Of a stretch of DNA of 35,883 nt, positions 10,789-28,092 are shown one piece after another. How positions within the stretch are numbered: position 1 is the first letter of the stretch; each line of letters starts with the position of its first letter. Both the position numbers and the translations under genes were made by a program. The stretch lies in NCBI GenBank assembly GCA_009914615.1, contig WNDX01000030.1, forward strand, positions 1 to 35,883, given 5' to 3'. The notes beneath the pieces were generated by a model. The model was not told where the DNA came from. It searched no databases and worked only from the letters and a program-made list of their open reading frames with translations. Origin of the DNA: Herbaspirillum frisingense (lineage in GTDB: Bacteria > Pseudomonadota > Gammaproteobacteria > Burkholderiales > Burkholderiaceae_D).

Positions 10789-11727
10789 TTACTGCGGCCC
10801 GTGCTCGGATTTCAGGTAATTCCAGATGCGGTCGATCTCGGGGCTGGCGCCGTCCAGGCGGCGATACACGCGGATATCCATCTCGTCGCACCACAGGCCC
10901 TGCTCCAAGGCCTCGCTATCGTTGGGCGCGATGGCCAGCGTCAGCTTGCCCTCCGCGATCTCGCGCGCCACCGCGCTGGCGGGCAGCCAGGCGATGCCGT
11001 GGCCTTCCACCGCCATGCTCTTGAGGCCCTCGGCGAGGTCGGTCTCGAAGCGGCGGAACAGATGCACGCGGCGCGGGCTGGAATGCAGCGCCTTCTCGAC
11101 GATGCGCGACAGCGACGAATACGGCGAATAACTGAGGAAGGGCTGGGGATCGTTGGGCGTGCCGGGCAACACATACTTGGGCAGGCCGCCGGGCAGCGTC
11201 TTCACGTAGGGCCGCAGCGGTTCCTTGCCCAGCGACAGCACGTCGTAGCGCTCGGTGTCGAGCGCGATGCCCTGCTGGCGATGGTCGTAGCAGATCAGCA
11301 GGTCGCAATTGCGCTCCACCAGCGCCATCACGGCGTCGTGCACGTTGCCGGCCATGACGGTGGTGGCGATGGCGCCGATCTTCTTTTCGATTTCCGACAA
11401 CAGCCGGGGGAACAGCGTCAGCAGCAGCGTATGCGGCATCGCGAAGCGCACCGCCGATTGGGCGCCGGCCAACTGGCCGCGCAGCACCAGCCGCGCCTGC
11501 ATGGACTGGTTGAGCATTTCCTTGGCGATGGGCACGAAGGATTCGCCGGCCGGGGTCAGGGTGCAGGGATAGGAAGAACGGTCGAACAATTCTGCGCCCA
11601 GCCAGGTTTCCAGCGAGCGGATGCGGCGCCCGAAGGCCGGCTGCGTGACATTGCGCAGCTTGGCCGAACGGCTGAAGTTCAGCGTATCGACCACCGAGAG
11701 GAAGTCCTCCACCCATTTGATTTCCAT
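10789..11727 (-). CDS. LysR-family transcriptional regulator (HypT-like)
   Basis: A 312-residue LysR-type regulator. The N-terminal winged helix covers residues ~1-62 (IKWVEDFLSVVDTLNFSRSA, then VTQPAFGRRIRSLETWLGA), and a two-lobed effector domain spans ~90-300. The opening W-V-E-D-F-L and the later GHGIAWLPASAV resemble the hypochlorite-responsive HypT/YjiE subgroup, although ligand and role are not shown. ATG 11727 with AGGGG upstream is chosen; an upstream in-frame ATG gives a non-homologous extension. It is unusually placed in the same direction as its likely target, the ornithine cyclodeaminase-family gene. A 17-bp palindrome lies 125 bp upstream. Confidence 0.9.
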   Translation of the reverse strand: MEIKWVEDFLSVVDTLNFSRSAKLRNVTQPAFGRRIRSLETWLGAELFDRSSYPCTLTPAGESFVPIAKEMLNQSMQARLVLRGQLAGAQSAVRFAMPHTLLLTLFPRLLSEIEKKIGAIATTVMAGNVHDAVMALVERNCDLLICYDHRQQGIALDTERYDVLSLGKEPLRPYVKTLPGGLPKYVLPGTPNDPQPFLSYSPYSSLSRIVEKALHSSPRRVHLFRRFETDLAEGLKSMAVEGHGIAWLPASAVAREIAEGKLTLAIAPNDSEALEQGLWCDEMDIRVYRRLDGASPEIDRIWNYLKSEHGPQ

Positions 11728-11851
11728 CGTCGCAGCCCCTTTGGCGGCCGCGCCCGCGGCACGGCATGTGGATTCCTCCCGGCGCGCTGCGCCGGCCCGG
11801 ACCATCTCTTGGCCCGGCAGCAACTATACCGAAACGGCACCGCCGGCGTCC

Positions 11852-11868
11852 CATGCCATTTTGGCATG
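11852..11868. promoter_or_regulatory. 17-bp palindrome upstream of the LysR gene
   Basis: CATGCCA-TTT-TGGCATG is a perfect inverted repeat with 7-bp arms. It lies in the 170-bp gap upstream of the LysR gene. Its size and TGCC/GGCA arms suit a LysR-type (T-N11-A-like) autoregulatory site. No T tail follows, so a terminator for the neighbouring operon is less likely. Confidence 0.5.
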
Positions 11869-11897
11869 AGTCGCGCCGGGAGTGGAATTGCGGGCCA

Positions 11898-13040
11898 TCA
11901 ATCGGGCAGCTGGCCGAGTAAGTCGGGGTTCAGCAGCCGCAGGCCGTCTACCCGCACGGCGCTCTCTAGCACCTGCGCATAGTCATGATGACTGTCGCGG
12001 AAGCACAGGTCGATACGGCAGGCAGCGCCGTCGCGCCCCAGCCTGACGGCGTGCAGGTAATGCCGCTGCGGCAGGATCGCCGCGGCGGCTTCGGTGGCCA
12101 CGGCGGAAAACGGGGCGCCCCAGCAGGTGATGGCGAAGCCGCGCGCTTCCAGCCAGGCGCAGATGCGCGCGATCAGCGCCGCGTCGCAGGGCAGCAGCAG
12201 ATCGGCATCGGCCGGCGCGCGCGCCGCCGGCCAGCGCAGCATCCAGCGCGCGAAGCTGCCATAGACCAGGAAGTCGGGAATCGCCGCCTGCAAGTCCCGC
12301 AGCGTCGCCAAGGTCTGCGCCAGGTCGATGCCGGCGGGAGCATTGCGCGCCACCAGGGCATATTCATGCGCGCGGTTGCCGTGCATGCGGCCGGGCTCCT
12401 GCGACGCGCACGGACGGTCATAGACCAGCACGCGCTCCTCGATCAGCTCGAAACGGTCCGCCATCAGCCGCGCCAGATCCCAGGCCAGCGGCACGAAACG
12501 GCCGCCGACGCGCAGGTTCTCCGCGCACAGCACCAGATGGGCGCCGGGCTTGAGGCAGGCGCGCAACTGCTTCAACGTGCGCTCCAGCATGCCGAGGAAT
12601 TGCGCGTAACTGCTGCTGGCGTACAACTGTCCGCGTTCGGCCTGCTGCGGCCAGGAGCAGCCGAAGTAAGGCACATTGCTCAGCACCAGGTCGACCGGTT
12701 CCAGGCCGGGCAGCAACTTCGCTGCGTCGCCTTGCAGCACGCGCTGGCCGATGGCACGCAGGCGATCCAGGCGCTCGGCCGCGATGGCGGCGCGCGGCGC
12801 ATCGAGTTCGATGCCGATGCCTGCGCGGCCAGCCAGATGGGCCGCCACCAGGGTGCTGCCGAAACCGCAGAAGGGATCGAGCACCGTGCCGCCCGGCGGG
12901 CACAGATGTCGGACGAACGGCGTCATCTGATCCACCCAGCCGCAATCGCGGGCGCCGAAGGCGTCCCGCTGCTCCAGGTCGGCGGGCAGCATCCAGTCGG
13001 GATCCTGGCGTTGCAGGTGGAGCCAACTGTTGTCGTTCAT
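11898..13040 (-). CDS. DNA methyltransferase-like domain fused to nucleotidyltransferase-like domain
   Basis: A 380-residue protein with two parts. Residues ~25-232 are a SAM-dependent N4/N6 amino-methyltransferase-type domain: motif I LDPFCGFGST (54-63), the acidic GIELD (76-80) and motif IV NVPYF (122-126), in place of the common N/S/D-P-P-Y. Residues ~240-380 look like a minimal nucleotidyltransferase fold with all three acidic positions: YGSFARWM (Gly261-Ser262), ADADLLL (Asp278, Asp280) and CRIDLCF (Asp344). No specificity domain or restriction gene is near. It overlaps the radical SAM gene by 4 bp (ATGA 13037-13040) and is the last gene of the NAD operon. A nucleic-acid target is inferred, and no known name fits the fusion. 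Confidence 0.78.
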   Translation of the reverse strand: MNDNSWLHLQRQDPDWMLPADLEQRDAFGARDCGWVDQMTPFVRHLCPPGGTVLDPFCGFGSTLVAAHLAGRAGIGIELDAPRAAIAAERLDRLRAIGQRVLQGDAAKLLPGLEPVDLVLSNVPYFGCSWPQQAERGQLYASSSYAQFLGMLERTLKQLRACLKPGAHLVLCAENLRVGGRFVPLAWDLARLMADRFELIEERVLVYDRPCASQEPGRMHGNRAHEYALVARNAPAGIDLAQTLATLRDLQAAIPDFLVYGSFARWMLRWPAARAPADADLLLPCDAALIARICAWLEARGFAITCWGAPFSAVATEAAAAILPQRHYLHAVRLGRDGAACRIDLCFRDSHHDYAQVLESAVRVDGLRLLNPDLLGQLPD

Positions 13041-14199
13041 GGCCGCGGACCTTCATTGGTGGAACGGGACGCGCGCATCAGCGTGACGTGCGCGGGCGCT
13101 GGTTCCGTCCCGAGCAGCACGTTGCGCCGCGGATCCCATCCGCTGCACAGATTACCGTTGGCGTGGAACACCAGCTTATAGACGCGGCCGCTGTCGTGGC
13201 GATGGTGCATGCGGGTGTAGTCCGAGGCTTCGAAGGTGATCTCCATGCCGCGAAAGTCGAGTACCACATTCCAGAAGTAGTAGCCCGAGGTCGCGTGGCG
13301 CAGCCGGCTGTGCGCCGTGAATTCCGGATCGGCCAGGCAGGCGGCCAGCAGGTCATCCATCGCCACCCGCGCCGAGGCGATGTAGCGCGCGGTCACGTTG
13401 TCCCGGTATGTCGGCCCCAGTTGCGAGAACTCGCGCAAGATGACCGCGCCCACGCCTTGTTGCGCCGCCCAGTCGAGATAAGCCTTGAGCGACGCCAGAT
13501 CCGCCACGCCACCCTGCTGGACGATGCAGACCAGCTTCACCACCAGTTGCCGCGACAGCTGCGCCAGCGTGTCCTCGAAACAGGCCTGCGCGGCGATGGT
13601 CTGGCCATCGCGAAAACGCATGATGGCCTGGTTGGCGCCGGCGGCGAAGTGGTGGCGCGACAGTTCTATCCAGTCCAGGCCGAAGCCGTGCAGACGTTCG
13701 ATCAGGCGGCCGCCGACGCTGCCGGCGAAGCCCGCGCCGTTGGAATACAGCACGCTGTTCTCCACCGGCGAACGACCCGCGTGTTCTTGCAGCGCATCCA
13801 GCATGGCCAGCATCCAGGCCGCGTCGTCGGTGGTCTCCAGACCCGACAGCGAATAGGACAACGGCAGGCCGCGCAACGCCGCCAGCGCGGCGCGCAGGCG
13901 GTCGAAATAATCGGCGCGGGGACGCAGACCGGCCGCATGGGCGCCGCCGTCGGCCAGGGTTTCCGAACAGAAGCGGCAACGCGCCGAACACGGCCGGGAC
14001 GAAGCATAGGGCGTGAAGGTGACCGGCTGCGCCACCAGTTGCGGCCGCCGAGCTGCCATTGCCGCCAGCGCGAGGCATCGCCGCGATCGGGCTCGCGCTG
14101 GATCACGCTCTCCAGGTGCGGCTCCAGCAGGCGCTTGAGCGGGGCCGGCATCAACGGCGGCAGCGCCGCACTGCCAGCGGATGGCGCGATGGCATCCAT
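13037..14199 (-). CDS. Radical SAM protein, apparent one-base frameshift near the N-terminus
   Basis: The core carries the radical SAM cluster motif CSARCRFC (Cys-x3-Cys-x2-Cys) after TFTPYASSRP, then a long barrel-like region and a C-terminal part with SGYYFWNVVLDFRGMEITFE. Two frames are needed: the first runs from ATG 14199 (GAGGA ahead, 3 nt after the Nudix-fusion stop) to about RWRQWQLGGRNW, the second from there to TGA 13037. The full span is 1163 nt, one short of a multiple of three, so one lost base near 14033-14038 would restore 387 residues with Cys71/75/78. Alternatively translation starts at ATG 14059, giving 340 residues and leaving a 140-bp coding-like gap. Substrate unknown; the neighbours suggest nucleotide or nucleic-acid chemistry. 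Confidence 0.78.
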
Positions 14200-14202
14200 G
14201 GT

Positions 14203-15258
14203 TCAGCGTTCCTCGGTCAGTTTGAGGAAGCTGTCGAGGATGTGGAAATGGTCGTCGAAGAAACTCTCCTCCATCGCCGCCAATCGGGCGATCGGCGTCC
14301 ACACCGCTTGCGCGGCATCGTCGGCGGCCTCGACTTCCGGCAGATGTTCCAGGCGCAGGTCGAAGTAATAAGCGTGGGTGATGGTGCGCCCGCGCGCGCT
14401 GCGGTCGGGGTGGTCGAAGATCTTGACGTCCACCAGCGCGTCTTCCAGCGTGACCGGCAGCACCGCCAGGTTGGTCTCCTCGGCCAGTTCGCGCAGGGCG
14501 GCCTGCATCAGCCGTTCGCGCTGATCGAGGAAGCCGCCCGGAACGGCCCACAGGCCGCGCCCTGGAAAGCCCTTGCGCTGCACCAGCAGCACGTGATCGG
14601 CGGCGCGGATGACGGCATCGACGGTGGTGAAGATCGGCGGATAGGGCGCGGCCGACCAGGCGGCCTTGTACTTTTGCAGCTGGCGATGCTCCTCGGCCAG
14701 CGGCGTGTAATGCGGCAGCAGCGACCAGGCGCGCAGGTATTGCCGCACGCTGGCCGGCAGCATCTGCGCCAGCACGTCCAGCGTGACATCCATGTCTTCG
14801 GCCTCGAACCACAGGCGGCGAATGTCAGTGGCGTCGATATCGACGGCGCGTTCCAGCGCCTCCAGTTCCCAGTGCGGAAAATGACGCAGGTAATAACTGG
14901 AGGCATCCTTGAAGTGCCCGACCAGGACGATGCGCGCCTGCTCTCCCGCCACGCCCGCGACCAGGCGCCTGACCTCGGCCGACCAGCGGCGGTCGTCGTA
15001 ATAGTCGCGCGTGGCGACGAAGCGCACGCGTTCCCGTTGCGTCTCCGGCAGCGCGCCGGCGATCATGGCGGCGCGCTCCTGCCAGGTCAGCGGGTTCTTG
15101 GTATTGCGTGCGTGGAAGGCCGAGCCGAGCACCACGATCACCGTGGGCGCGCGTTCCAGCGCACGCTGCAGCAGATGCAGGTGGCCGTTGTGGAAGGGCT
15201 GGAAGCGCCCGATCAATACCGCCGCATCCGCCGTTCTTGCCTTGTCTTGCCCTGACAT
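14203..15258 (-). CDS. nadM: Bifunctional NMN adenylyltransferase / Nudix hydrolase
   Basis: A 351-residue fusion of the slr0787/NadM-Nudix type. Residues ~12-185 form the nucleotidyltransferase domain with GRFQPFHNGH (17-26), which adenylylates NMN or NaMN. Residues ~205-340 form a Nudix domain, usually an ADP-ribose pyrophosphatase. The Nudix box at 243-265 is intact: G, then E249, then RELAEE, with Asn in place of the final Gly. Joining synthesis of dinucleotide to removal of ADP-ribose is known for this family. It lies 12 nt after nadE and 3 nt before the radical SAM gene, in one operon. Confidence 0.93.
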   Translation of the reverse strand: MSGQDKARTADAAVLIGRFQPFHNGHLHLLQRALERAPTVIVVLGSAFHARNTKNPLTWQERAAMIAGALPETQRERVRFVATRDYYDDRRWSAEVRRLVAGVAGEQARIVLVGHFKDASSYYLRHFPHWELEALERAVDIDATDIRRLWFEAEDMDVTLDVLAQMLPASVRQYLRAWSLLPHYTPLAEEHRQLQKYKAAWSAAPYPPIFTTVDAVIRAADHVLLVQRKGFPGRGLWAVPGGFLDQRERLMQAALRELAEETNLAVLPVTLEDALVDVKIFDHPDRSARGRTITHAYYFDLRLEHLPEVEAADDAAQAVWTPIARLAAMEESFFDDHFHILDSFLKLTEER

Positions 15259-15270
15259 GCCCGCTCCTTG

Positions 15271-16968
15271 TTAGTACGTCACTGCGATGGGAATCTGCCG
15301 TCCGCTGCCGAAGGCGCGCGCCCGCACCCGGATCACCGGCGGCGACTGGCGGCGCTTGTATTCGTTGCGCGCGGTCAGGCGGCAGATGCGCTCGACCAGC
15401 GCGGCCCCCTCTTCGGTGTCGCGCAGGCCCTCGACGAACTCGCCGGCCGCCCGCGCTTCCGCCGCCGGCAGGCGATCGCCTTCGATGTGCCATTTGAGGA
15501 TCTCGTCGAGCACCTCGTAGGGCGGCAGGCTATCGGTATCGCGCTGGTCCGGCGCCAGTTCGGCCGACGGCGGCTTGTCGAGCACGGCGGCGGGAATGAT
15601 CGCGCGGCCGGCGGCGGCGTTCAGGTGGCGCGCCAGCGCATACACCTCGGTCTTGTACAGATCGCCGATCAGGCCGAGACCGCCATTGGTGTCGCCATAC
15701 AGCGTGCAATAGCCGACCGATATCTCGCTCTTGTTGCCGGTGGTCAGGAGCAAGGCGCCGAAGCCGTTGGAGTATTCCATCAGCACCGCGCCGCGCACCC
15801 GCGCCTGCAGGTTTTCCAGCGGCAGCCCGCGCAGCGGCGCGCCGAAGGCCTTGGCGAAACCGTCTTCGAACTCGCGCACCAGGTCGGCGATGGGGTGGCG
15901 GAACAATTGCACGCCCAGCGCCCGGCACAGCGTTTCGGAATCATCCACCGAGCCCGTGCTGGAGAACCTCGACGGCATGGTCACCGCCACCACGTTCTGC
16001 GGCCCCAGCGCCTCGGCCGCCAGCGCGATGGTCAGCGCCGAATCGATGCCACCCGAGGATCCCACCACCACGCGCTCGAAACCGCAGCGGCGCGCATAGT
16101 CGCGCAGGCCGAGGATGATCTGGCGGCGATAGAACTCCGGCGTCGCCAGCGTCTCTTCCACCAGCCTGGGCGCGGCGGTGCCGTCGTCGCGCAGGAAGCG
16201 ACCGTCTTCGAAGGCCAGCAGCCGGAAATCCGGAGCGAAGCGCGCGGCTTCGAAGGCCAGGCCCTGCTGCGGCGACATGGCGAAGGAGGCACCGTCATAC
16301 ACCAGCTGATCCTGGCCGCCGACCTGGTTGACGTACAGCAGCGCCATGTCGCGCCGCAGGCAGGCGGCCTGGAACAGGGCGTGGCGCTGGGCCCGCTTGC
16401 CGACGTCCGACGGACTGGCGTTGATCGACAGCACCAGTTGCGCGCCGGCGTCGGCCAGCTTCTGGAAGGGATTGACGCGATAGCTGCGCAGATCGTCGTT
16501 CCAGCCATCCTCGCAGATCAGGAAACCCACGCGCACCCCCTTAAGCGGCAGCACGCAGGCCACTTCCGGGCCGGCCTCGAAATGGCGGCCGTCGTCGAAC
16601 ACGCCATATACCGGCAGCAGCTGCTTGTGATACTCGGCGACGATGGCGCCGTCGCGCACCGCCAGCAGCGCATTGAACAGCGGCTTGCCCGGACCGGTAT
16701 TGCGGCGCGGCGCGCCGATCACCGCGGTCAGGCCGGGCAGCGCGCGGGTGGCGGCGATGATGCGTTCCAGCGCCGCCACCATGTTGCGCAGGAAGCGCGG
16801 TTCTTCCAGCAGGTCGCCCGGGTAGTAGCCGCACACGGCCAGTTCCGGGAAGGCCACCAGATCGGCGCGGCCGGCGGCGGCGCGCTGCATGGCGTCGATG
16901 ATCTGCGCGGCGTTGCCGTCGAAATCGCCGACGGTGGGATTGAGCTGGGCAATGGCGATGCGAAGCAT
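15271..16968 (-). CDS. nadE: Glutamine-dependent NAD+ synthetase
   Basis: A 565-residue two-domain enzyme that converts nicotinic acid adenine dinucleotide to NAD with ATP, using ammonia from glutamine. The N-terminal nitrilase-type glutaminase (~1-260) has the triad Glu42 (FPELAVCGY), Lys115 (EYHKQLLP) and Cys152 (LICEDGW). The synthetase domain has the ATP P-loop GSSGGIDSA (residues ~303-311), and TTGNKSEISVGYCTLYGD later. The start at ATG 16968 is set by AAAGGA seven bases upstream; longer readings run into the pncB gene. It lies 20 nt after pncB and 12 nt before the NMN adenylyltransferase gene. Assignment is very secure. Confidence 0.97.
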   Translation of the reverse strand: MLRIAIAQLNPTVGDFDGNAAQIIDAMQRAAAGRADLVAFPELAVCGYYPGDLLEEPRFLRNMVAALERIIAATRALPGLTAVIGAPRRNTGPGKPLFNALLAVRDGAIVAEYHKQLLPVYGVFDDGRHFEAGPEVACVLPLKGVRVGFLICEDGWNDDLRSYRVNPFQKLADAGAQLVLSINASPSDVGKRAQRHALFQAACLRRDMALLYVNQVGGQDQLVYDGASFAMSPQQGLAFEAARFAPDFRLLAFEDGRFLRDDGTAAPRLVEETLATPEFYRRQIILGLRDYARRCGFERVVVGSSGGIDSALTIALAAEALGPQNVVAVTMPSRFSSTGSVDDSETLCRALGVQLFRHPIADLVREFEDGFAKAFGAPLRGLPLENLQARVRGAVLMEYSNGFGALLLTTGNKSEISVGYCTLYGDTNGGLGLIGDLYKTEVYALARHLNAAAGRAIIPAAVLDKPPSAELAPDQRDTDSLPPYEVLDEILKWHIEGDRLPAAEARAAGEFVEGLRDTEEGAALVERICRLTARNEYKRRQSPPVIRVRARAFGSGRQIPIAVTY

Positions 16969-16988
16969 GATGGATCCTTTCTGCCGCG

Positions 16989-18182
16989 TCAGGCCGCGGC
17001 GCTGATGCCGAACAACTGGCGCAGATAAGCCAGGAAGGTCTCGTCCTTGCAGATGGTCTTGCCCGGCGAATCGGACAGCTTGGCGACCGCCTGGCCGTTG
17101 CAGGAGGTGAGCTTCATGACGATGTTCAGCGGTTCGATGCCGGTGTCGTTGCTGAGATTGGTGCCGATCCCGAAGCCGGTCATGGCGCGGCCGGAGAAGT
17201 GCCGGTACAGCTTGAAGGCCCCCGGCAGATCCAGGCCGTCGGAAAACACCAGGCGCTTGGTGCCGGCATCCAGGCGTAGCTTGCGATAGTGCGCCAGCGC
17301 CTTCTCGCCCCATTCGAAGGGATCGCCGGAATCGTGGCGCAGGCCGTCGAACAGCTTGGCGAAGTACAGGTCGAAATCGGCCAGAAAGGCGTCCATGCCG
17401 ACCACGTCGGTAAGCGCGATGCCAAGGTCGCCGCGATACTCCTGCACCCAGTCTTCCAGCGCCGCCTTCTGGAAATCGCGCAGGCGCACCCCGAACGCCT
17501 GGTAAGACTGCAGATATTCGTGCGCCATGGTGCCGATGGGCACCAGGCCGTACTTCTTGGCCAGCCAGACGTTGGACGTGCCCTTGAAGTAATCCGGCAC
17601 CTCGCGCGCCAGCGTGGCCACCACCTCTTCCTGCCATAGCGCCGAGTAGCGGCGACGCACGCCGAAGTCGAAGAACTCGAACGGGTAACGTCCGCCGGGT
17701 TCACGGGCGAACTCGCGCAGCAGGGCGATCTTGTCCTGCAGGCGCCGGCGCGCCTCCTCCAACGCGGCGGCGTTGCCGAGACGGCGGAAGTAAAGCTCGT
17801 TGACGATGTAGAGCACGAAGATCTCGAAGCCCATCACATGCACCTGCGGGCCGCTGGCGACGATGGACAGGCCGTCGCCCTCGACCTGCACGCGGATGAA
17901 CTTGCGCTGGAAGCGGAACAGCGCGAGGAAGTCGATGAAGTCGCTCCTCATGTAGCGCAGGCCGGCGAGATAGGCCAGTTCGTCGTCGGTGAAGCGCAGC
18001 GAACACAGGTGATCCAGCTCGCGCTCCACGTCCTCCTTCAGTTCGGCCAGCGGAAACTGGGGCCGGTTGCGGCAGACGAAGACGTATTCGGCCTGCGCGC
18101 CGGGGTGGCTGTGCAATAGCGCCTGCCACATGGTGAACTTGTAGAGGTCGGTTTCCAGCAGGCTGCGGACGACGGGCGCCAT
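16989..18182 (-). CDS. pncB: Nicotinate phosphoribosyltransferase
   Basis: A 397-residue enzyme that joins nicotinate to PRPP, giving NaMN, the committed step of Preiss-Handler salvage. It matches E. coli PncB along its length: [20 protein letters not shown] at the N-terminus, the [11 protein letters not shown] loop, the [14 protein letters not shown] region with the phosphorylatable His, [44 protein letters not shown] and [15 protein letters not shown]. Agreement is with PncB and not with the nicotinamide-specific NadV. AAAGGAGT lies 8 nt before ATG 18182. The 74-bp gap to the nicotinamidase-like gene holds a GC-rich hairpin. Confidence 0.96.
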
Positions 18183-18216
18183 GATGCGCACTCCTTTCGT
18201 TGGGATGAGGGACCTG

Positions 18217-18243
18217 AAGCCCGGGGCTCCGGGCTCCGGGCTT
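18217..18243 (-). other. GC-rich hairpin between the nicotinamidase-like gene and pncB
   Basis: AAGCCCGG (18217-18224) pairs with CCGGGCTT (18236-18243). The sequence between repeats the GCCCGGA unit. It lies in the only sizeable gap of the operon and has no T tail, so it is more likely an mRNA-stability or processing element than a terminator. Confidence 0.35.
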
Positions 18244-18256
18244 AGGCGTTCAGTGT

Positions 18257-19120
18257 TCAGGCATTGGCTTGCAGTTCGGTCAACACCTCGGCCGAACTCG
18301 CCAGGCGTACGCCGGCGCCGGCCATGGCGTCGAGGAAGTCGCGGTACTGCGCGTCGAAACCAGCCACCGGGCTCATGCAATCGGTCACCAGCACCAGCCG
18401 GGCGCGGCCGGCGGCGTCGAGGTTCTCGACGATGTGCTCGGTGGTGGCGCGCACGCAGTGGCTGCCGGCTTCGCCGGTGATGTACACGCCGTCGGCGCGG
18501 GCCAGCCCATTGATGAAATCGCTGTTGAGCTGGGTGTCGGGGTCGGCGGCATCCGGCACTTCGGCCATCACGGCCGAGTAGTGCTCGGTCCAGGGATTGC
18601 TGCCCTTGGCCAACTTGGCGACGATGCCCAGGGTCGCTTCTTCCCAGCGGTTGTAGGCGGCGCGCACGTCGGCGTGCACGGCGCCGCCCCAACTGCCGAT
18701 CTCGCAGTGCACCGGCCACACCATCAGGCGGTAGCGGCCGGCGGCTTCCAATGCATCCAGGTAAGCCAGCGCGCGCGGCAGCGCCTGCGGGTCGCGCGGC
18801 AGGTAACGGCCGGCGCGCACCTCGGCGGCCTCGATCTGGGTGAAGGGAGCAACCGCGCCGCCGTCGCCGGCCCGCCAGAAGGTCGGGTGGGCGATGTCCA
18901 GCCTGTGGTGGGAATCGATGGTGATGCTGATGGCCGACAGGCCGCGACCGCCCTCATCGATCAGCCTTGCCACGCGCTGCATGTCGGCATGCGCGCCGGC
19001 CACCGGCAGCGCGGGTTGCTGGGGCGCGCCGCTGATCGGATCGGCCGGGAGATAGGCGGCGGGCAGGTCGCAGAAATCGTTTTGCGGATCAATCACGAGG
19101 AGATGCAGATTGCGCTTCAT
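18257..19120 (-). CDS. Nicotinamidase-like cysteine hydrolase (isochorismatase family)
   Basis: A 287-residue member of the isochorismatase fold, longer than classical PncA (~210). The triad is Asp11 (VIDPQNDF), Lys172 (LAKGSNPW) and Cys222 (TGEAGSHCV). Metal ligands Asp69, His71 and His78 ([16 protein letters not shown]) are those of nicotinamidases, and [16 protein letters not shown] resembles the PncA W-P-x-H-C motif. Extra length comes from an insert around residues 85-125. It is the first gene of the NAD operon, just ahead of pncB, so deamidation of nicotinamide to nicotinate is the natural role (inference, strongly supported by context). ATG 19120 has AAAGGTGGAAG upstream. Confidence 0.85.
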
Positions 19121-19150
19121 GGCTTCCACCTTTCGGGTTGCGGTGAAGCC

Positions 19151-19179
19151 AGTGTAGAACACTTAATTTAACTTTGCAA
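19151..19179 (-). promoter_or_regulatory. Promoter of the NAD operon with candidate NrtR sites
   Basis: On the minus strand TTGCAA (19174-19179) and TACACT (19151-19156) are 17 bp apart and make a usable -35/-10 pair reading into the nicotinamidase-like gene. The spacer is AT-rich with the near-palindrome ACTTAATTTAACT (19161-19173), and ACTAAGCTAATTGAG follows at 19179-19193. The block AGTGTAGAACACT (19151-19163) is also an inverted repeat over the -10. Confidence 0.5.
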
Positions 19180-19253
19180 CTAAGCTAATTGAGAGGATTT
19201 TTGCCAGTCTTCTATGCCAGAAAGGAAACATTTCATGAATGGCAATAAATAGA

Positions 19254-19282
19254 TTCACAATGACACTAAGTACCATTAGACT
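19254..19282 (+). promoter_or_regulatory. Promoter of nrtR with palindrome CTAAGTACCATTAG
   Basis: TTCACA (19254-19259) and TAGACT (19277-19282) are separated by 17 bp. The inverted repeat CTAA-GTACCA-TTAG (19266-19279) fills the spacer and enters the -10. The adjacent ACTAAG string also occurs at 19179-19184 near the operon promoter. This layout fits an autorepressor site. Confidence 0.5.
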
Positions 19283-19311
19283 GCTGGCGTGACCGAAAGC
19301 AAGGAGAGCAA

Positions 19312-19977
19312 TTGGATCAGGTGATCTGCACGGTGGATGTGGTGTTGCTGACGCTGTCGGCGGATGGGCTGGAGGTCGCGCTGCTCAGGCGCGAGCACGC
19401 GCCCTTCAAGGGCGTGGCCGCCCTGCCCGGCGGCTATATCCATGCCGATGCCGACGCCGATGCGCGCGATGCCGCGCGACGCGTGCTGCGCGACAAGACC
19501 GGCATCGAAGCGCCTTACCTGGAACAGTTGGCCACCTTTTCCGGCGCGGCGCGCGATCCGCGCGGCTGGTCGGTCTCCATCGCCTATTACGCGCTGGTGC
19601 CGGCCGCCATGATCACCCAGGCCGAACGCAGCGAACTGCGCCTGGCCAGCGTGGATCGCCTGCCGCCGCTGCCCTTCGACCATGCTGCCATCATCGAGAC
19701 CGCGGTGTCGCGCCTGCGCAGCAAGAGCCAGTATTCCTCGCTACCCTGCCATCTGCTGGGCGAGGCGTTCACGCTGCCGCAACTGCAGCGCGTCTATGAA
19801 ATGCTGCTGGGCGAGAGCATCAACAAGGTGAGCTTCCGCCGCAAGATGACCGAGATGGACATGCTGGAACCGGCCGATGGCCAGTTCGAGACGGCCGGCG
19901 CCCACCGCCCGGCCCAGCTCTACCGGCTCAAGCCGGCCTTCCGCGAACAACTGCGCCTGCTGGAACGCGGGCTCTGA
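19312..19977 (+). CDS. nrtR: NrtR-family Nudix-related transcriptional repressor of NAD metabolism
   Basis: A 221-residue regulator. Residues ~5-140 are a Nudix-like domain whose catalytic box has decayed: from G41 the box carries two extra residues, and the usual RELxEE reads RVLRDK. This is expected for NrtR, which senses ADP-ribose and does not hydrolyse it. Residues ~150-221 are the C-terminal winged helix (LGEAFTLPQLQRVYEMLLGE, then KVSFRRKM). A TTG start at 19312 with AAGGAG five bases upstream is the only sensible start. It is divergent from the NAD operon, which it should repress when NAD-derived signals are low in demand. The family assignment is firm; the operators are inferred. Confidence 0.92.
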   Translation: MDQVICTVDVVLLTLSADGLEVALLRREHAPFKGVAALPGGYIHADADADARDAARRVLRDKTGIEAPYLEQLATFSGAARDPRGWSVSIAYYALVPAAMITQAERSELRLASVDRLPPLPFDHAAIIETAVSRLRSKSQYSSLPCHLLGEAFTLPQLQRVYEMLLGESINKVSFRRKMTEMDMLEPADGQFETAGAHRPAQLYRLKPAFREQLRLLERGL

Positions 19978-25534: not shown

Positions 25535-27964
25535 TCACTGCAATATCTTCTCGCCGATCCCTGCACCCAGCGGCGCCAGCAAGGCCTGCAATTCCTCTTC
25601 CCCGAACTTGACCGCCTGCGCATCATCCCGGCCCAGCATGCCTTCGGCCAAGGCCGACTTGCGCGCCTGCAGTTCCAGCAGCCGCTCTTCGATGCTGCCT
25701 TCGACCACCAGCTTGTAGACGAACACCTGGCGCGTCTGTCCCAACCGGTGCGCGCGGGCGATGGCCTGTTCTTCCACCGCAGGATTCCACCACGGATCGA
25801 CCAGCACCACCGTGTCGGCCGCGGTCAGGTTCAGGCCCACGCCGCCGGCCTTCAGGCTGACCAGGAACAGCGGCGCCTCCAGCGCCTGGAAGCGCGCGAT
25901 TACCGCGCCGCGGGCCGCGGGTTCGGTAGCGCCGGTCAACGTCAGATACGGGAGATCCAGCGCATGCAGCTCGGTCTCGATCAGCGCCAGCATCGCGGTG
26001 AATTGCGAGAACACCAGGATGCGTCGTCCTTCCGCCACCAGCGCCGGCAGCATGTCGCGCAGCAGTTCGATCTTGGCGCGCTCGATGCCCTTGGGCATGC
26101 GCCCGCCCTTGAGCAGATAGGGATCGCAGCAGACCTGGCGCAGCTTGAGCAAGGCATCCATCACCGTCACCTGCGATCCGGACAGGCCGCGCCGCAGCAG
26201 CGCGCGCTTGACCTGTTTGTCGGCGGCGATGCGCACGCTCTCGTACAGTTCGCGCTGCCGTCCCTGCAATTGCAGGCGCTCGACGATCTCCGTGCGCGGC
26301 GGCAGTTCCTGCAACACGTCTTGCTTGCGCCGGCGCAGGATGAAGGGGCGCACGCGCTGCGCCAGCAGACGCGCGCGCACGGTCTCGCCCTGCTCTTCGA
26401 TGGGCTTGCGCCACAGCCGCGAAAAGCTGCGCGCATCGCCGAGAAAGCCCGGCATCAGGAAATGGAATTGCGTCCACAGTTCGCCCAGGTGATTTTCCAG
26501 CGGCGTGCCGGTCATGCAAAGACGATGGCGCGCGTGCAGCTTGCGGGCTGCGGCGGCGCTGCGCGAGGTGGCGTTCTTCACGGTCTGGGCTTCGTCCAGC
26601 ACCAGCATGTGGAAGCGTTGCTGCGCAAGCTGGTCGAGATCGCGCCACAGCAGCGGATACGTCGTCAGCACCAGGTCGGCGCCACCGGCGGACAGCGCGG
26701 CGAAATGGTCGGCGCGCCCTTCGCCGTGCAGCACCACCACCCGTAGCGCAGGGGCGATGCGGCGCGCTTCCTGCTGCCAGTTGAACAGTAGCGAGGTCGG
26801 CACCACCACCAGCGCGGGCAGGTCCATGCGTCCCGCCTGTTGTTCGATCAAGAGATGGGCCAGCACCTGCGCGGTCTTGCCCAGCCCCATGTCGTCGGCG
26901 AGGATGCCGGCCAGGCCTTGTTCGCGCAGATACTGCATCCAGGCCACGCCTTGCAACTGGTACGCGCGCAGGCGTATGCCCAGGCCCTCCGGCGCCGCCA
27001 CCGGCTGCACGCCGGCTTCGCCGCTCATGTGCCAGGGCGCGCCGCCCTCCAGCGACAGCAATGCGCTGTGGATGGCGTCGAGGCGATGCGCATCCCAGGG
27101 CGTCAGGTGCAAGGGGCCGTCCTTGCGCTTGAGATCGCTCAGCAGATCGAGCAACGCCAGCACCACCGCCTTGAGCGGGCCGGCCATGGCATCGATGCGG
27201 CGGCCGCCCGGTGCGCGCAGCGAGATCACCGCGTGCGGGTCCATCCGTTCCACCTGCTGCGCATCGGCCCAGCGCGGATCGCGGCGCAGCAGGTCGGCGA
27301 TCATGGGGCCGACATCCATGGTCTCGCCTTCGACGTCGATGCCGATCGACAGCAACCAGCGCCCGGACGGATCCAGGCCGTCGAACACTTCGCTGGAAAA
27401 GGCGCGCGGCTGCATAGGCGCGGCGACTTCCTTGCCCAGCACTTCGCCGGTCTCGCTGCTGACGATGAAGCGCCAGGCGGTCACCGGCACGCTCTCGTGC
27501 GCAAACCCGGGCTTGACCACCAGCGACCATCCCTGCCGTTGCAGGCGCGGCGCCTGGTCGGCCCAGAAATCGCCGAAGGACTCTTCCAGCACCAGCGTCC
27601 ATAGCGGGCCGGCGGCATGCAGCGGATTTTGCGCGCGCCATTGCAGCGCATCTTCGCGCAAGGGCAGGAAGCCCAGTTCGCGTATGGTTTCCAGCGCGGC
27701 CGATTCGGCCACGGCATCGCGCACGATGTGCGCCGGCGTGTAGCCGGCATCGTCATCGCCGTAACCGGTCGGCGCCGGTACGCTCCAGCGCTGCGCGCCC
27801 TCGCCGTAGGTCCAGTCGATCTGGGCCACCGTCACCATGCCGCCGCGCGGGCCGAACAGGCCGTGCGCGCGCATGCCCAGCAGGCCGTCGCCGCGCGTGA
27901 GCGTTTGCAGCATCAGGCGTGGACGGAAGATGGGAGCGTCGTGGAGAACGGCGTTGGACGGCAT
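25535..27964 (-). CDS. SNF2-family DEAD/DEAH-like helicase
   Basis: An 809-residue ATP-dependent DNA translocase of the SWI2/SNF2 (RapA/HepA-like) group. Residues ~1-320 are an N-terminal region without clear motifs. The helicase core starts near 330 with LRAYQLQGVAWMQYLREQGL, then Walker A DDMGLGKTAQ (~357-366), VLDEAQTVKN (DEAQ in place of DEAH, ~456-465), LCMTGTPLEN, and the second domain with VFSQFTAML, LKAGGVGLNL, DPWWNPAVEEQAIARAHRLG and QTRQVFVYKLV. Roles in remodelling DNA-protein complexes are typical. ATG 27964 is chosen; the upstream extension crosses a terminator. The ribosome site is weak. The gene is monocistronic. Confidence 0.93.
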   Translation of the reverse strand: MPSNAVLHDAPIFRPRLMLQTLTRGDGLLGMRAHGLFGPRGGMVTVAQIDWTYGEGAQRWSVPAPTGYGDDDAGYTPAHIVRDAVAESAALETIRELGFLPLREDALQWRAQNPLHAAGPLWTLVLEESFGDFWADQAPRLQRQGWSLVVKPGFAHESVPVTAWRFIVSSETGEVLGKEVAAPMQPRAFSSEVFDGLDPSGRWLLSIGIDVEGETMDVGPMIADLLRRDPRWADAQQVERMDPHAVISLRAPGGRRIDAMAGPLKAVVLALLDLLSDLKRKDGPLHLTPWDAHRLDAIHSALLSLEGGAPWHMSGEAGVQPVAAPEGLGIRLRAYQLQGVAWMQYLREQGLAGILADDMGLGKTAQVLAHLLIEQQAGRMDLPALVVVPTSLLFNWQQEARRIAPALRVVVLHGEGRADHFAALSAGGADLVLTTYPLLWRDLDQLAQQRFHMLVLDEAQTVKNATSRSAAAARKLHARHRLCMTGTPLENHLGELWTQFHFLMPGFLGDARSFSRLWRKPIEEQGETVRARLLAQRVRPFILRRRKQDVLQELPPRTEIVERLQLQGRQRELYESVRIAADKQVKRALLRRGLSGSQVTVMDALLKLRQVCCDPYLLKGGRMPKGIERAKIELLRDMLPALVAEGRRILVFSQFTAMLALIETELHALDLPYLTLTGATEPAARGAVIARFQALEAPLFLVSLKAGGVGLNLTAADTVVLVDPWWNPAVEEQAIARAHRLGQTRQVFVYKLVVEGSIEERLLELQARKSALAEGMLGRDDAQAVKFGEEELQALLAPLGAGIGEKILQ

Positions 27965-27976
27965 GCGGGCACGGTC

Positions 27977-28006
27977 AAAAAAGAAGCGGCCATTGTAGGC
28001 CGCTTC
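27977..28006 (-). terminator. Minus-strand intrinsic terminator
   Basis: GAAGCGGCC (27983-27991) pairs with GGCCGCTTC (27998-28006). On the minus strand the stem is followed by TTTTTT. It ends transcripts from the small gene at 28093-28272 just upstream of the helicase start. Confidence 0.8.
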
Positions 28007-28092
28007 GCATGCTCCGTGCACACCGCCTGGGGCGGAAAGAAGAAAGGAAAATACGGCGTGCAACCGCTATGCGGCGCCCAGGATCACTTGAA

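Follow-up and report, generated by a model that had tools for sequence, protein, structure and literature searches.

A radical SAM gene and a methyltransferase/nucleotidyltransferase fusion as a possible accessory module of the NrtR response in Herbaspirillum frisingense

A question raised by the nicotinamide adenine dinucleotide (NAD) salvage locus of Herbaspirillum frisingense concerns the two genes with which it ends. The stretch of DNA analyzed here (the window) comprises 35,883 nucleotides (contig WNDX01000030.1 of assembly GCA_009914615.1, positions 1 to 35,883). On its minus strand, between positions 11898 and 19120, a pncA-like gene, pncB, nadE, and nadM–Nudix are followed by a gene encoding a radical S-adenosylmethionine (SAM) enzyme and by a methyltransferase/nucleotidyltransferase fusion gene (MTNT), and these six genes are faced by the divergent repressor gene nrtR (19312–19977). 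What might the radical SAM gene and MTNT (hereafter, the pair) be doing there? On the basis of comparative sequence analysis, our tentative answer, to which we assign slightly less than an even chance, is that the pair might serve the NrtR (ADP-ribose) response as an accessory enzyme module, modifying or repairing RNA, DNA, or a nucleotide. The features on which the argument is built are the following:

19312..19977, plus strand: nrtR, Nudix/winged-helix repressor gene, divergent from the operon (NrtR_WHD at 5.3e-23, and NUDIX; the NtrR model matches at 2.7e-51, below its curated cut-off)
18257..19120, minus strand: pncA-like gene, nicotinamidase-like hydrolase (weak NCBIfam and Pfam matches; position kept in relatives)
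16989..18182, minus strand: pncB, nicotinate phosphoribosyltransferase (domain and family matches)
15271..16968, minus strand: nadE, NAD synthetase with a CN-hydrolase (glutaminase-type) domain
14203..15258, minus strand: nadM–Nudix, nicotinamide mononucleotide adenylyltransferase-Nudix
13037..14199, minus strand: radical SAM gene, frameshifted near codon 57 (main open part 13037-14026)
12336..13040, minus strand: methyltransferase domain of MTNT (residues 1-235)
11898..12329, minus strand: nucleotidyltransferase domain of MTNT (residues 238-380), with the motif GS...DxD...D
10789..11727, minus strand: lysR-type regulator gene, boundary of the operon and not part of it (directly after nadM–Nudix in two genomes devoid of the pair)

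The six-gene operon facing nrtR had been proposed in an earlier sequence-only reading of the window, whose coordinates and gaps (74, 20, 12, 3, and −4 nt, in order) are correct. That reading mentions neither the frameshift of the radical SAM gene nor that the pair is accessory, nor the enzymes of ADP-ribose removal near it in a relative. The idea that this arrangement is the outcome of chance or of an assembly artefact can be rejected, because the operon is shared by five genomes of the genus. The genome embedding the window is a draft (254 contigs, 99.3% complete), and the nearest named relative found is Herbaspirillum chlorophenolicum, whose seven corresponding proteins are 82–97% identical to those of the window. 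A consensus scan of positions 11600-19500 provided no evidence for or against a single operon transcript: on the nrtR side one promoter-like site was predicted (plus strand, 19254-19282; 0.8 expected), together with three terminator-like sites (4.3 expected), one of which falls within the radical SAM gene, on the minus strand.

Evidence connecting the pair to NrtR comes from the region between nrtR and the first gene, where two further features were recognized:

19163..19183, minus strand: putative NrtR-type operator, TTAGTTGCAAAGTTAAATTAA, assigned to NrtR by position and uniqueness
19151..19179, minus strand: promoter-like element TTGCAA-17 nt-TACACT, with the −35 hexamer inside the operator (same geometry in 12 intergenic regions, some with variant hexamers)

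The operator is one instance of a 21-bp palindrome-like site, TTAGTT-N9-WMYTAA, common to the nrtR–first-gene intergenic regions of 12 loci; its left half overlaps the −35 hexamer (TTGCAA or similar), and TACACT or a variant of it is found 17 nt after that hexamer. The promoter-like site of the operon retains 8 of the 12 consensus bases and falls below the threshold of the consensus scan. When the strict operator pattern was searched for in 14 genomes, it occurred at exactly one place per genome in all 12 scanned family genomes carrying the pair, always between nrtR and the first gene, and at no place in the genomes G561 and G903; the reversed pattern, used as a control, gave a single hit (in G062). 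Within the window the operator is the only site even if up to one mismatch is allowed (0.01 expected). Because of its position, symmetry, and uniqueness, we assign the palindrome to NrtR, whose motifs differ between taxa, as stated in an excerpt of PMC5343134. In one of the loci (L036 10783-10901, genome G155) the −10 element is so near the start codon of the radical SAM gene that the transcript would be nearly leaderless.

The pair was then compared across 16 loci, the H. chlorophenolicum contig, which entered the data set twice with identical sequences (G936 and L033) and also belongs to the genus draw of the window's genome, being counted once. Six loci harbor both nrtR and the NAD operon: five belong to the window's genus (G000, G101, G936, G938, and G941) and one is the relative G062. 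Six others, all from the genus g40 (G155, G992, G1032, G1057, G1065, and G1115), harbor nrtR only, and it is the radical SAM gene that faces it first. Over the 20 kb retrieved for each of these six loci, the NAD-gene queries gave no match except Nudix-domain hits to nrtR itself; their pair-only status refers to this 20-kb span. In Xanthomonas bromi the pair follows nadM–Nudix and NAMPT, with no nrtR in 19 kb, an arrangement resembling NAD salvage by NadV (NAMPT) and NadM, there extended by the pair. Thus, the genome search for the pair that had been suggested from the sequence alone, with scoring of its linkage, gives 13 of 16 loci adjoining nrtR or NAD genes. As for the suggestion that the functional link would fall if the pair occurred mostly without NAD genes, nine of the 16 loci show no NAD-synthesis gene, yet six of these nine possess nrtR and the operator and three possess neither.

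Since those six loci keep nrtR and the operator, the link appears to be with the NrtR (ADP-ribose) signal more than with NAD synthesis. Hence, the idea that the last two genes are tied to the NAD response has to be modified rather than abandoned: they do belong to the operon, and the single strict operator of the six g40 genomes faces the pair alone, and the tie is to the signal sensed by NrtR more than to the making of NAD. Overall, the pair occurs under the same operator in three settings: accompanied by NAD-salvage genes, accompanied by both these and genes for ADP-ribose removal, or by itself. The role usually ascribed to NrtR is the regulation of NAD biosynthesis; an NrtR operator over the pair with no NAD gene at the locus, together with ADP-ribose-removing neighbors in a relative, would suggest a response to ADP-ribose stress of which NAD repair is only one arm.

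The distribution of the pair was surveyed with a radical SAM profile in draws of genomes at different taxonomic levels, which overlap and are samples. Matches were found in 12 of 392 genomes of the family, in 5 of 34 in the window's genus, and in 6 of 74 in g40, as well as in 2 of 97 genomes of the family of G561 and in 2 of 299 in the phylum. The class gave three matches out of 369, one of which (G495) is a different enzyme, and the order four out of 399, three of them being other, diverged radical SAM proteins. Among 72,556 plasmid records the only match is from Hymenobacter swuensis; there the radical SAM gene overlaps by 4 nt with the next gene, which encodes a nucleotidyltransferase lacking the methyltransferase part. 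A scan of genome contigs with MTNT retrieved H. chlorophenolicum and X. bromi. The pair is rare and patchy in the genomes sampled. Some candidates were discarded: G495 and G1240 possess a different, SRHH-type radical SAM enzyme, and that of G1270 and G1391 is diverged, adjoins a second radical SAM gene, and is not accompanied by MTNT, so that none of them enters the 16 loci. With the MTNT protein as query, 163 of 195 genomes of the family gave hits at E 0.001 among the matches listed, but only four of them (its own genome included) contain full-length relatives; the next-best rows shown are stretches of about 50-95 residues around a DPFxGxGT motif, i.e., generic methyltransferase matches. A Streptomyces NBC_01450 plasmid also carries a stretch 40% identical to the methyltransferase part of MTNT, in a region where its record bears no annotation.

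Presence and absence of the pair were compared with those of nrtR. Of the 34 genomes of the window's genus seven possess nrtR; five of these seven have the pair, and none of the other 27 does. In g40, an NrtR match at E 1e-10 was obtained for 16 of the 74 genomes, and for ten of these it is close (E 2e-94 or better); six of the ten genomes with a close nrtR contain the pair, which is absent from the remaining 64. With respect to the NrtR gene set the pair is an accessory addition: in two genomes (G129 and G059) nadM–Nudix is directly followed by lysR, the gene after MTNT in the window, which represents an empty site; three others (G1142, G1099, and G1135) have nrtR and the NAD operon and no pair, and G166 has nrtR with neither NAD operon nor pair in the 20 kb fetched.

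This presence/absence between nadM–Nudix and lysR in Herbaspirillum is what would be expected if the pair were a hitch-hiker inserted behind nadM–Nudix or beside nrtR with no functional tie to them. Three unlinked loci point the same way, as does the frameshift in the window's own radical SAM gene, which lies near codon 57 (13990-14060), the copies of H. chlorophenolicum and G101 being open throughout. This frameshift may, with equal likelihood, represent a recent inactivation (pseudogene) or an assembly slip in the 254-contig draft. However, the part of the gene downstream of the frameshift has a ratio of nonsynonymous to synonymous substitution rates (dN/dS) of 0.18 in the comparison with H. 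chlorophenolicum, versus 0.12–0.18 between intact copies; it looks constrained and not visibly decayed. Moreover, the tie is kept in three arrangements (in the NAD operon, with nrtR alone plus the operator, and with nadM and NAMPT). We consider a mere hitch-hiker very unlikely.

If the pair is functionally tied to NrtR, which reaction might it catalyze? In the radical SAM protein a CxxxCxxC motif is invariant in 15 aligned relatives and is also present in the window's row. A radical SAM barrel is seen in the predicted fold of the intact H. chlorophenolicum protein, the cluster loop being of low confidence. The fold is MoaA/viperin-like, but enzymes of ribosomally synthesized and post-translationally modified peptides (RiPPs), as well as a lipid enzyme, reach comparable scores. 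Sequence identity with MoaA and viperin is only 10-14%, and the invariant cysteines are the CxxxCxxC triad plus one more, so that there is no sign of a second cluster like that of MoaA. The sequence databases were of little help: Pfam Radical_SAM reaches 12.7 bits (E 0.15) with the window protein against a cut-off of 29.5 and gives no match at E 1 for the H. chlorophenolicum and Hymenobacter proteins; PHROGs has no family for the radical SAM protein or for the Hymenobacter proteins, and sequence searches of the PDB with the radical SAM protein or the nucleotidyltransferase part returned nothing useful.

The methyltransferase half of MTNT adopts a Trm11/Trm14-like class I fold with a motif of the (N/D)PPY type, here (N/S)xPY. 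It shares 16-23% identity with the Trm11/TrmN/Trm14 N2-methylguanosine (m2G) tRNA methyltransferases, differs from them in being fused to a nucleotidyltransferase, and cannot be filed as a member of the Trm11/Trm14 group, since no THUMP RNA-binding domain was recognized among its Pfam matches up to E 10. A weaker assignment, resting on motif and predicted structure, is that of the C-terminal part to the Pol-β-type nucleotidyltransferase domains: a GS-type motif (S being G or T in 2 of 16 rows) and three catalytic aspartates lie on neighboring strands, the fold-search lists for MTNT are filled by the methyltransferase domain, and the nucleotidyltransferase sequence profile gave nothing significant.

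An alternative compatible with such a set of domains is that the pair makes a small nucleotide-like molecule (a signal, a cofactor, or an inhibitor), the radical SAM enzyme rearranging a nucleotide, the methyltransferase decorating it, and the nucleotidyltransferase adding a nucleoside monophosphate, with NrtR tying the output to ADP-ribose. It appears unlikely: as RiPP and lipid enzymes score alike, the radical SAM fold does not point to a nucleotide, and the methyltransferase is closest to RNA enzymes. Under the preferred reading of an accessory module acting in the NrtR response, RNA would be a slightly more likely target than DNA, because of the Trm11-like fold and of the KptA and PARG genes neighboring a distant homologue (see below). 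The amino group of guanine would be the first candidate site, given that the methyltransferase half most resembles the m2G tRNA methyltransferases. The radical SAM and nucleotidyltransferase parts may represent the core, as the Hymenobacter plasmid has only these two.

The genomic context in relatives adds a link with ADP-ribose. In G062 the row reads pncA, pncB, nadE, nadM–Nudix, ADP-ribosylglycohydrolase (ARG), radical SAM, MTNT, macrodomain, and a fusion of isochorismatase-like, TCAD9, and DSP-phosphatase domains, no gap after nadM exceeding 37 nt. The row ends (L037 5494-7809 and 7830-8312) with the macrodomain and this 771-residue fusion, of which L118 contains a homologue (59-69%), separated by about 7 kb from a diverged radical SAM pair. 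The distant radical SAM homologue of G1240 (32% over 205 residues) lies, after a 233-nt gap, in a row with PARG, KptA, and DSP genes; this row is divergent from an nrtR-like gene, itself followed by an ARG gene. An island in L119 (6941-14231) includes nrtR-like, ARG, PARG, KptA, DSP phosphatase, SRHH-type radical SAM, aminotransferase-like, and methyltransferase genes. Islands centered on ARG, with Nudix or WYL repressors, have been predicted to counter ADP-ribosylation (PMC9503650, section 3.8). The G062 locus shares with them the NrtR-type repressor, ARG, the macrodomain, and the DSP phosphatase, whereas the operon of the window shares the Nudix repressor but has neither ARG nor macrodomain: neither was found among the window proteins scanned, and ARG was present only in the relative G062.

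Neighbors such as those of G062 (ARG, macrodomain, TCAD9, DSP), being of the kind predicted for ADP-ribose conflict islands, raise the possibility that the pair is itself a defence or toxin-like effector acting on host or phage RNA or DNA during an attack, the NAD genes serving to rescue the cell. The patchy distribution (12 of 392 family genomes) would fit this idea, and so would fast evolution: in four of four comparisons of the seven genes, dN/dS is highest for MTNT, and the radical SAM gene ranks second. A radical SAM domain is mentioned, in an excerpt of PMC7159879, as an effector-linked enzyme of another class of conflict systems. PADLOC methyltransferase models match the methyltransferase half of MTNT (mads_2 at 7.5e-17, and type II methyltransferases), but over a generic methyltransferase stretch, and none matches the radical SAM part at E 0.1. 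Furthermore, no nuclease or membrane domain was recognized in the pair, and in six genomes it lies on the nrtR promoter, the locus offering no further partner. In viral contigs no relative was found with either of two alignments, and phages gave no full-length match, five phage records matching MTNT over 12-16% of its length only; a radical SAM match in Dulem virus 40 is weak and partial. An effector role, too, appears unlikely.

If the pair does act as an accessory module of the NrtR response, the following scenario can be proposed. Consumption of NAD by an ADP-ribosyltransferase or NADase from a phage, a toxin, or a defence system would raise ADP-ribose; this would release NrtR (the M. smegmatis NrtR leaves DNA upon binding ADP-ribose, according to an excerpt of PMC6800001), the operon would be switched on, and NAD would be rebuilt. 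The radical SAM enzyme and MTNT might then act jointly on a nucleic acid or a nucleotide, either repairing an ADP-ribosylated or damaged site or protecting the same site. ADP-ribosylation of RNA is reversed by NADAR at guanosine and by PARG at the 2'-OH, as reported in an excerpt of a 2025 study (PMC11833690). A more specific version, in which an ADP-ribose-induced, radical-SAM-dependent step installs or restores a modified residue, perhaps a guanine, and thereby either shields the base from ADP-ribosylation or frees it from this modification, is speculative and, in our opinion, somewhat unlikely.

Several points weigh against assigning the pair to an NrtR-dependent modification or repair module. 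Three of the 16 loci (G561, G903, and Hymenobacter) show neither nrtR nor NAD genes, the extent searched being about 52 of the 62 kb of the contig in G561, a whole contig of only 6.3 kb in G903, and 40 kb in Hymenobacter. The palindrome is ascribed to NrtR by its position, symmetry, and uniqueness and not by a published consensus. The pair is missing from six genomes with nrtR, so that NrtR does not need it, and the hypergeometric p values for co-occurrence of pair and nrtR (7.5e-5 in the window's genus and 1.1e-6 in g40) ignore shared ancestry and physical linkage. The window's own radical SAM copy is frameshifted. A fold resembling that of Trm11 or MoaA reveals neither function nor substrate. 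Lastly, the section of PMC9503650 on NrtR-type ARG islands names neither a radical SAM nor a methyltransferase-nucleotidyltransferase protein.

With the NrtR regulon of NAD metabolism described by Rodionov et al. (2008), as presented in excerpts of PMC6800001 and PMC5343134, the locus shares the Nudix/winged-helix repressor, the divergent NAD-salvage genes, and a palindromic operator; it differs in the two extra enzymes of the operon, which in one genus are the sole genes at the only strict operator. The pair under NrtR might thus represent a new extension of this regulon. Among the papers listed in our literature searches on radical SAM enzymes with NrtR or ADP-ribose enzymes none treats such a pair, although an earlier mention is possible in the 2012 survey of NAD-using gene sets by de Souza and Aravind; a paper treating both Herbaspirillum and NrtR concerns NadE and PII. 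As a two-gene system, the pair is small enough to be expressed and assayed, and it could yield a new modification of nucleic acids or nucleotides.

Some minor observations concern the surroundings of these loci. In H. chlorophenolicum (L033 9153-14356) the pair is not followed by lysR, unlike in the window, G101, G938, and G941. In G561 (L044 3713-6200) Ogt-like and AlkA-like genes, named by eye from their translation, lie a few kb from the pair, and an SDR-like neighboring gene is shared by G561 and G903. In two loci (L111 7902-10533 and L037 16593-19252) nrtR stands beside two genes, one zinc-ribbon kinase-like and the other, recognized by eye, vWA-like; in G166 no NAD genes were found within 20 kb. 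G089 has a second NrtR-like paralogue (53%), close to a NAMPT-like gene (L112 4907-8167). Finally, the window also contains an SNF2-type helicase gene (25535-28063, minus strand), and the further proteins scanned include MFS transporters, an EamA transporter, an FMN oxidoreductase, and a DAO-type oxidoreductase.

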